The position numbers were made by a program, and so were the translations under genes. Below the pieces are notes generated by a model. That model did no database searches. It was not told the DNA's origin and saw only the letters and a list, made by a program, of their open reading frames with translations. Below, piece by piece: positions 61,676 through 64,000 of a stretch of DNA of 64,000 nucleotides. The DNA comes from Pseudomonas viridiflava (lineage in GTDB: Bacteria > Pseudomonadota > Gammaproteobacteria > Pseudomonadales > Pseudomonadaceae): positions 310,001 to 374,000 of the forward strand of contig NZ_RBTP01000012.1 of NCBI RefSeq assembly GCF_003702045.1, in the 5' to 3' direction. Numbering within the stretch: position 1 is the stretch's first letter; each line of letters opens with the position of its first letter.

Positions 61676-62113
61676 ATGACGGTCTGGATAGTCCTGTCAA
61701 TCATTTGTGTCATGTTGAGTCCACTTGTGTGGCTGCGTCCATCGCGTCATCAGAGCGGCCGGATGGCATTGCGCATGGAAGCCCGGCGTATTGGCATGGC
61801 CATGCAACTAGCACCGCAGGAGTGGCCGCACTGGCTTCCCAAAGAGCCGCCCAGCCCTTGCGCTCAGTACCATCGCCCTCGCAAGAGTTCCAATTCCGAT
61901 GCCTGGGTCTACTGGCAGCTCGAGCCCGGAGTCTGGGTCAATCGCTGGCGTGAGCCTTGCGAGGACGATGCGTTGCTCGCCCATTTCAGTACGCTTCCAG
62001 CCGATGTGTTCAAGGTTGAAGCGGACGCGCAGATGATTGCGGTGTACTGGGCCGAGCGGGGCGAGGCAGAAGTATTACAGCGTATTAACGCGGTGCTCAA
62101 GGCGTTGGCGTAA
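61676..62113 (+). CDS. Small single-span membrane protein of unknown function
   Basis: 145 residues from the ATG at 61676; the frame opens at 61619 but a membrane segment begins right at the chosen start (TVWIVLSIICVMLSPLVWLRP). The rest (25-145) is cytoplasmic and rich in Arg, Trp, Pro and Ala, with WPHWLPKEPPSPC and WVYWQLEPGVWVNRW. The layout (one helix, then a basic, Trp-rich region) recalls YajC-like proteins of pseudomonads, without firm support. It has no close same-strand neighbour. Confidence 0.65.
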   Translation: MTVWIVLSIICVMLSPLVWLRPSRHQSGRMALRMEARRIGMAMQLAPQEWPHWLPKEPPSPCAQYHRPRKSSNSDAWVYWQLEPGVWVNRWREPCEDDALLAHFSTLPADVFKVEADAQMIAVYWAERGEAEVLQRINAVLKALA

Positions 62114-62140
62114 AGCACTCGCCGGCAAATCGCAGGCAAT

Positions 62141-62166
62141 AAAAAGCCCGATAACAACATCGGGCC
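62141..62166 (-). terminator. Rho-independent terminator reading leftward
   Basis: On the minus strand, GCCCGAT-GTTGTT-ATCGGGC is followed by TTTTTATT. On the plus strand no T-run follows. There is no minus-strand protein gene upstream of it, which implies a non-coding transcript. Confidence 0.8.
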
Positions 62167-62380
62167 GGGGTTGGCCAGGCAGGCCGATAATTCCTTGGGC
62201 GCCGGCATCCAGTATCTGAATGCCGGTTATCACCGCTGCGCACCTGCGATCAACTTCATCTCAGGCCTCTTATGGCGCAGTGGCGTGACTCTAGTCCTTC
62301 TGCTCTCTTTTGTCGCGTTTTTCCCTACACTTCTTTCAAATGAGCCTCAACGGTGCAGAGTCTGCGGAGTTTGGCTTAGG
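62141..62380 (-). ncRNA. Candidate small RNA in the fadB leader, antisense orientation
   Basis: The minus-strand region before the terminator at 62141-62166 carries further hairpins: GGCC-AGGCA-GGCC (62173-62185) and CCGGCAT...ATGCCGG (62202-62226). A possible minus-strand promoter is TTGCCA, 16 bases, TAATGC near 62384-62413. No frame longer than about 10 codons has a start site. The 5' end is only a guess. Confidence 0.4.
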
Positions 62381-62414
62381 CTGTGCATTATCATTTCGTC
62401 GAATGATGGCAAAT

Positions 62415-62428
62415 CAAACATGGGTTTG
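62415..62428. promoter_or_regulatory. PsrA-type operator upstream of fadB
   Basis: CAAAC-ATGG-GTTTG fits the PsrA consensus (G/CAAAC, 2-4 bases, GTTTG/C) known for fatty-acid genes of P. aeruginosa. It is 280 bases before the fadB start. A looser pair (TCAAACG ... CGTTTGG) lies at 62530-62558. The rest of 62167-62707 has no convincing protein gene. Confidence 0.65.
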
Positions 62429-62707
62429 TTGGTCAGGAATCGCTTGTGCGTTCGGCAATCCGCCGTTTTTATGGGTGTTTTGGCGAATTGACAATTATCC
62501 GGTTTTGCCCGATGGTGTGCGTACCCAAATCAAACGGGCGTATGAAATGAGCGTTTGGTCGTCAGACGGCTCTGACAGAATCCTGGCTACCACGTCGCAG
62601 CGGATGTACGTGTGATTTGGCGTGTTCATCGACGGCGACGTCGTAGTCTCGCTGAGCGGTAATGTTCAGCGAGTATTGTTCAGCTTCCATATTGTGGAGA
62701 TCAGTTG

Positions 62708-64000
62708 ATGATTTACGAAGGTAAAGCCATCACGGTTAAGGCTCTTGAAAGTGGCATCGTCGAATTGAATTTCGACCTCAAGGGTGAGTCCGTCAACAAG
62801 TTCAACCGTCTCACCCTCAACGAGCTGCGTCAGGCCGTGGATGCCCTCAAGGCTGACGCGTCGGTTAAAGGTGTGGTTGTCACCAGCGGCAAGGACGCTT
62901 TTATCGTCGGCGCTGACATCACCGAGTTTGTCGACAACTTCAAGCTGCCCGAAGCCGAGCTGGTCGCCGGCAACCTGGAAGCCAACCGCATCTTCAGTGA
63001 TTTTGAAGACCTCGGCGTGCCGACAGTCGTGGCCATCAACGGCATCGCGCTGGGCGGCGGCCTGGAAATGTGCCTGGCGGCTGATTACCGTGTCATGTCC
63101 AGCAGTGCCAAAATTGGCCTGCCGGAAGTCAAACTGGGCCTGTACCCAGGCTTCGGCGGCACGGTTCGTCTGCCTCGCATCATCGGTGCCGACAACGCCA
63201 TCGAATGGATTGCATCCGGCAAGGAAAACGCCGCTGAAGACGCCCTGAAAGTGGGGGCTGTCGATGCGGTCGTCGCACCGGAAAAACTCCAGGCTGCGGC
63301 GCTGGACCTGATCAAGCGCGCCATCTCCGGCGAGTTCGATTTCAAGGCCAAGCGTCAGCCCAAGCTGGACAAGCTCAAGCTCAATGCCATCGAGCAGATG
63401 ATGGCATTCGAAACCGCCAAGGGTTTTGTTGCAGGTCAGGCCGGCCCGAACTATCCGGCTCCGGTCGAAGCGATCAAGACCATCCAGAAAGCCGCGAACT
63501 TTGGTCGTGACAAGGCGTTGGAAATCGAAGCCGCCGGCTTCGTGAAAATGGCCAAGACGTCTGCTGCACAGAGCCTGATCGGCCTGTTCCTGAACGATCA
63601 GGAGCTCAAAAAGAAAGCCAAGGGTTATGACGAAGTCGCCAAGGACGTGAAGCAGGCTGCCGTACTGGGTGCTGGCATCATGGGTGGCGGCATCGCCTAT
63701 CAGTCGGCCGTGAAGGGTACGCCGATTCTGATGAAGGACATTCGCGAAGAGGCCATTCAGTTGGGCCTCAACGAAGCTTCGAAACTGCTGGGTAACCGTG
63801 TCGAGAAGGGACGTCTGACGCCTGCGAAGATGGCTGAAGCGCTTAACGCGATTCGTCCTACGCTGTCTTACGGCGATTTCGGCAATGTCGATCTGGTGGT
63901 CGAAGCGGTTGTCGAGAACCCGAAAGTCAAACAGGCCGTTCTGGCCGAAGTCGAAGCGCAGGTGGGTGAAACTACCATTCTGGCGTCCAACACCTCGACC
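62708..64000 (+). CDS. fadB: Fatty acid oxidation complex subunit alpha, 5' part (continues past the window)
   Basis: The first 431 codons are present; the full protein is about 715-720 residues. The ATG at 62708 has GGAGA 7 bases upstream. An enoyl-CoA hydratase domain fills 1-190 ([33 protein letters not shown] with the first catalytic Glu, [21 protein letters not shown] with the second). The 3-hydroxyacyl-CoA dehydrogenase NAD domain begins near 315 ([21 protein letters not shown]). It does two steps of beta-oxidation together with FadA. Confidence 0.97.

Follow-up and report, generated by a model that had tools for sequence, protein, structure and literature searches.

CpxQ and DapZ are bacterial small RNAs derived from 3′UTRs. 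Within Pseudomonas, RgsA (P16) is an RpoS-dependent small RNA of 120 nt whose expression and RpoS dependence were established by Northern blot, as described in PMC2375449. The locus analyzed here lies upstream of fadB in Pseudomonas viridiflava (assembly GCF_003702045.1, contig NZ_RBTP01000012.1, positions 310,001–374,000 of the forward strand). This whole stretch of 64,000 nt is called the window below, and all coordinates refer to it. The RNA predicted from it resembles RgsA in its similar size, Rho-independent terminator, intergenic position and conservation in pseudomonads, and possibly in an RpoS-type −10; in contrast to RgsA, which has another sequence and is located near a tatD homologue (PMC2375449), the fadB-side RNA is a prediction from sequence.

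A description of this RNA was not found in open papers, though it may be listed in RNA-seq supplements, for example among the P. putida Pit RNAs. The locus treated in PMC7324555 is a different one. The 64-kb window had no matches to Rfam 15 at gathering thresholds. Below threshold, the minus strand matched Trp_leader (RF00513) at 62138–62238 with 21.9 bits against a gathering value of 41, and anti-hemB (RF02837) at 62138–62229 with 20.5 bits against 49.5. Both scores were at chance level, and neither a trp nor a hemB gene adjoins the locus. We consider it likely that the locus is a stress-induced, trans-acting RNA gene divergent from fadB, which would be driven by RpoS, stabilized by its terminator with the probable help of Hfq, and active through an invariant segment. 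The RNA gene itself is held to be more likely than either RpoS control or action in trans.

Results

The predicted RNA and its neighbors

According to an earlier sequence-only reading, a non-coding RNA ending in a terminator would be made leftward from this locus, divergently from fadB, and comparison across the genus agreed with it in both place and strand. The features of the locus were as follows:

62708–64000, plus strand: start of fadB, which runs off the window; divergent neighbor, with NCBIfam TIGR02437 (FadB) as best match over the first 400 aa
61676–62113, plus strand: unnamed 145-aa gene; convergent neighbor on the 3′ side of the RNA
62140–62281, minus strand: predicted small RNA of about 142 nt, delimited by a conserved −10/−35-like element and the terminator, the 5′ end being estimated from the −10 element
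62140–62197, minus strand: conserved 3′ core of 58 nt (covariance model R1), made up of an AU-rich patch, the invariant hairpin, a linker and the terminator
62173–62185, minus strand: invariant hairpin GGCC-UGCCU-GGCC, 13 letters, stem unchanged in 56/56 aligned copies
62140–62166, minus strand: Rho-independent terminator, with a covarying stem at 62166–62145 and a U run to 62140
62202–62226, minus strand: second stable hairpin CCGGCAUUCAG-AUA-CUGGAUGCCGG, found in close relatives only (window and L032)

The TIGR02437 score was below the whole-protein cut-off because the FadB protein is cut by the window end. The 145-aa gene was without a Pfam or NCBIfam match; among the 91 loci having both core and fadB, 85 carry it next to the core and in the same orientation as fadB. 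The terminator and the two further hairpins listed in the earlier reading were all recovered at the positions given above. Its statement that no protein gene lies upstream on the minus strand also held: the long minus-strand frame at 62666–64000 is the antisense of fadB, and shorter minus-strand frames, 48, 52 and 99 aa long, have their starts within the RNA and read on past its terminator. The extent of the RNA was revised: with a start near 62281, as judged from the conserved promoter-like element, it would probably span about 62281–62140.

The predicted 142-nt RNA folded better than 200/200 shuffled sequences (z −3.6), and the short member L121 folded no better than shuffles (z −0.17). Within 2.5 kb, four terminator-like sites were counted against an expected 2.5 (s.d. 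1.6), a pattern count not above chance; the terminator at 62166–62145 was taken as real because it is conserved, and not by pattern count. In the window genome, the core scored 88.3 bits with model R1. A multicopy family within this genome was rejected, as only one of the five exact copies of the 13-mer is accompanied by a terminator (the other four are not) and the next covariance match reached 19.5 bits.

Structure and covariation

Covariation was evaluated in alignment A3, which holds 56 model-aligned copies and excludes weak and unsyntenic matches, namely L117, L118 and L125 as well as those from other families. Two-sided changes were present in 7/8 pairs of the terminator stem, giving 44 cells compared with 4.5 in shuffles, and none of 500 shuffles scored as high. 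Sliding the partner strands, as a control, destroyed this signal. Because fitting to the model biases A3 in its favor, the terminator stems were also read directly from the sequences without a model. Among these stems, which were each matched by a partner strand, were GCCCGATG, GCCCGGTG, GCCCAGTG and GCCGCCC.

Helix 1, the stem of GGCC-UGCCU-GGCC, never varies, and hence covariation says nothing for it. A loop variant, UGUCU, was seen in one copy family only (L114/L115). The 5′ half of the RNA could not be aligned while the hairpin stayed unchanged, including at would-be codon third positions. Judged from this pattern, the invariant hairpin is a constraint on sequence beyond pairing, an invariance that is partly built in because the loci were fetched by similarity to the core. 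The second hairpin, CCGGCAUUCAG-AUA-CUGGAUGCCGG, was not alignable in distant species. The earlier reading had named covariance of the hairpins across Pseudomonas as a check: the terminator stem covaries and the hairpin preceding it is conserved, and the second hairpin is restricted to close relatives.

Distribution

A query spanning the entire intergenic region matched 298/298 genus genomes, mostly through the fadB-side part. At E ≤ 0.001, a BLAST query restricted to 62240–62120 on the minus strand gave matches in 221/298 genus genomes; these centered on 62193–62133, and the weakest are unverified. The covariance model R1, built from the 30 best loci, matched 150/348 family genomes at E ≤ 0.01, distributed over 10/19 genera, in a search whose filters lose weak matches and whose near-threshold hits are unverified. 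At the level of the order, 17/244 genomes matched, five of them from the family. Members outside the family were not accepted: the 12 remaining matches (E 5e-5 to 0.009) were taken as chance because their fetched loci lacked fadB, the 145-aa gene and the Usp gene. A phage origin was rejected as well, there being no match in the phage collection.

The core was present by pattern in 100/103 fetched loci and absent in L117, L118 and L125. Some genomes were fetched twice, and the 100 core loci correspond to 90 distinct sequences. In all 91 fetched loci showing both core and fadB, the core was on the strand opposite fadB. The distance from the core to the fadB start was 342–629 nt where no gene intervenes (76 loci) and 977–1355 nt where one does (15 loci). 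Three genomes (G092, G028 and G250) have fadB and no clear core.

Three genomic settings

The core was found in three settings. In the first it is free-standing, as in the window. In the second it directly follows an ORF of about 270 aa that is divergent from fadB, with stop codons 14–55 nt before the hairpin (12 measured); it forms the end of a protein gene in 15 loci. In the third it follows an unrelated DUF1329 gene at another locus (8 fetched loci), the domain assignment being based on a Pfam run on L106. The ORF of about 270 aa (e.g. L122:679–1503) had no Pfam or NCBIfam family above the curated cut-off. At E ≤ 1e-8 it matched 43/298 genus genomes, 34 of these at 49–100% identity, and the same threshold gave no match in the window genome. 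In four genomes of other genera (L189, L191, L192 and L195) it is present beside fadB without the core there. Among ten named records showing the pattern of the DUF1329 type, nine had DUF1329, including P. otitidis, P. resinovorans and P. boanensis; the fetched stretch of the tenth, P. kuykendallii, had none. In G041, G316 and G305, the orthologous DUF1329 gene is without the core.

In the ORF-end and DUF1329 relatives the core is therefore located in the 3′UTR of a protein gene, which is not so in the window, where the gene of about 270 aa is absent. These two settings are reminiscent of CpxQ and DapZ: the cores are right behind the stop codon, end in the terminator of the gene and have an AU-rich patch before the hairpin. 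The difference is that most fetched cores are free-standing with a promoter-like element of their own, and that the evidence here is genomic throughout. In a FadB tree of 52 rows the deep forks are open and the order of the settings is undecided, with four changes for a free-standing and four for an ORF-end origin. We tentatively suggest, as a possibility below our main reading, that a single regulatory RNA module is made in three ways. It would be released from the 3′ end of the gene of about 270 aa in some Pseudomonadaceae or, in the otitidis/resinovorans group, of the DUF1329 gene, or be made from its own RpoS-type promoter in relatives of the window, where the protein gene is gone, and the hairpin would do the same job in each case.

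Promoter-like element of the free-standing copies

The earlier reading had placed a possible promoter about 240 bases away. A consensus scan found none there, and the conserved element is nearer:

62288–62293, minus strand: −10-like element TAGAGT, with a C before it at 62294; a weak site in the window, reading CTACATT, CTACGCT or CTAGGCT in relatives
62311–62316, minus strand: −35-like element GCGACA, separated from the −10 by 17 nt; a GACAAA block is conserved in 25 grouped type A loci

Upstream of the core, CTANNNT was present in 70/71 free-standing copies (18 by shuffles) and KCTANNNT in 65/71 (9.2 by shuffles). KCTAYRCT, which is a wider form of the RpoS −10 element, was present in 28/71, compared with a shuffle mean of 0.6 and a maximum of 3 in 200 shuffles. 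For these counts single-letter shuffles were used, and L126, which is without the ORF of about 270 aa, was included among the free-standing copies. On the reverse strand KCTAYRCT was found in 1/70, and in the gene-end copies these numbers were 0/13 for the ORF-end and 0/8 for the DUF1329 setting. The RpoS −10 published as T/GCTATACT (PMC2375449) occurred in its exact form in 0/71 free-standing copies. The element of the window itself, ACTAGAGT, is a poor fit to KCTAYRCT, and the nearest relative has TCTACAGT; because of this poor fit the RpoS reading rests on the relatives. From these counts, the putative promoters of the free-standing copies look RpoS-like. The RNAs inferred for the free-standing copies measured 59–152 nt, with a median of 113. 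Inheritance of the putative free-standing promoter from that of a lost gene of about 270 aa was not supported: among 27 ORF loci, KCTAYRCT was found upstream in L122 and L242 only, and both are from the same genome, G064.

Terminator module or RNA gene

The most serious alternative is that the core is a terminator module only. It would stop leftward transcription from the fadB region before this becomes antisense into the gene at 61676–62113, and in relatives it would end the mRNA of the preceding gene, the RNA itself being inert. This would suit the position of the core between convergent transcripts, and also the 15 loci in which it ends a protein gene and the 8 in which it follows DUF1329. 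However, a terminator does not need the invariant GGCC-UGCCU-GGCC hairpin in front of it, and it is the terminator stem that changes freely and the hairpin that does not. Moreover, a nearby RpoS-like promoter element is found in free-standing copies and not in gene-end copies, and two genomes (G488 and G259) keep the hairpin and the promoter element, CTACACT, without a terminator-like T run. We consider the terminator-only explanation unlikely. Across the loci compared, the core is a structured and conserved non-coding element with a terminator, and it has a promoter-like element when free-standing.

PsrA-type sites

In its full form, the earlier reading amounts to an RNA about 270 nt long that would start from a promoter near 62413 and may be controlled by PsrA and fatty acids. 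Two sites are relevant:

62415–62428, unstranded: PsrA-type palindrome CAAACATGGGTTTG, with 10/10 letters in the window only; not conserved
62531–62544, unstranded: PsrA-like site CAAACGGGCGTATG in the upstream region of fadB; conserved in 73/73 loci

According to PMC13104628, the PsrA consensus is G/CAAAC(N2-4)GTTTG/C and PsrA represses fadBA5 in P. aeruginosa. The palindrome at 62415–62428, which the earlier reading had named, is a perfect sequence match to this consensus, but it is not conserved: at a comparable distance in 73 loci, 10/10 letters were found in one locus, 9/10 in three and fewer in 69. There is no promoter match near 62413, and about 135 bases separate the palindrome from the conserved start element of the RNA, which lies downstream of it. 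The PsrA-like site that is kept in 73/73 loci, CAAACGGNNGTATG, belongs to the fadB side: it precedes fadB by about 176 nt and is about 250 bases away from where the RNA would start, and the reported repression of fadBA5 fits a role of this site in serving fadB. PsrA control was therefore rejected as a conserved feature of the RNA, with the palindrome complete in 1/73 loci, and a longer RNA under fatty-acid control appears quite improbable to us.

Across the genus, the 218 bases 5′ of fadB at 62487–62704 share about 73% identity. Judged by this conservation and by the presence of CAAACGGNNGTATG in all 73 loci, the segment is a strongly kept control region or leader of fadB. A strong plus-strand hairpin of 11 pairs, scored as terminator-like, is located just 5′ of fadB at 62648–62673 and may be a leader structure of that gene.

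Coding potential

A small protein gene, with the core conserved through translation, is the least credible explanation and was rejected: a frame reading NYRPAWPTPAR is open with an upstream start in some inferred RNAs of fluorescens-like species, and the window frame MKLIAGAQR has a counterpart, MQLMAGAQR, in the nearest relative, but 33/63 inferred RNAs lack any ORF of at least 8 codons, no peptide is common to all of them, the 13-mer shows no variation at any third position, and a stop codon precedes the core in both the ORF-end and the DUF1329 setting.

Discussion

With a stress-induced, trans-acting RNA gene as the preferred reading, the following sequence of events is proposed. RpoS would switch the gene on in stationary phase or under stress, and the terminator would stabilize the resulting RNA, probably together with Hfq. 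The invariant CCGGCCUGCCUGGCC segment would be the active part, most simply through pairing with target mRNAs in trans. The RNA would be without a protein product and without a known effect on fadB.

If the locus is transcribed, it would represent a new small RNA family, outside Rfam 15, in a well-studied genus. The fixed hairpin amid changing surroundings would provide a sharp handle for target finding, and the three settings would make the family a testable case of a small RNA switching between an mRNA tail and an independent gene, with species amenable to laboratory work on either side.
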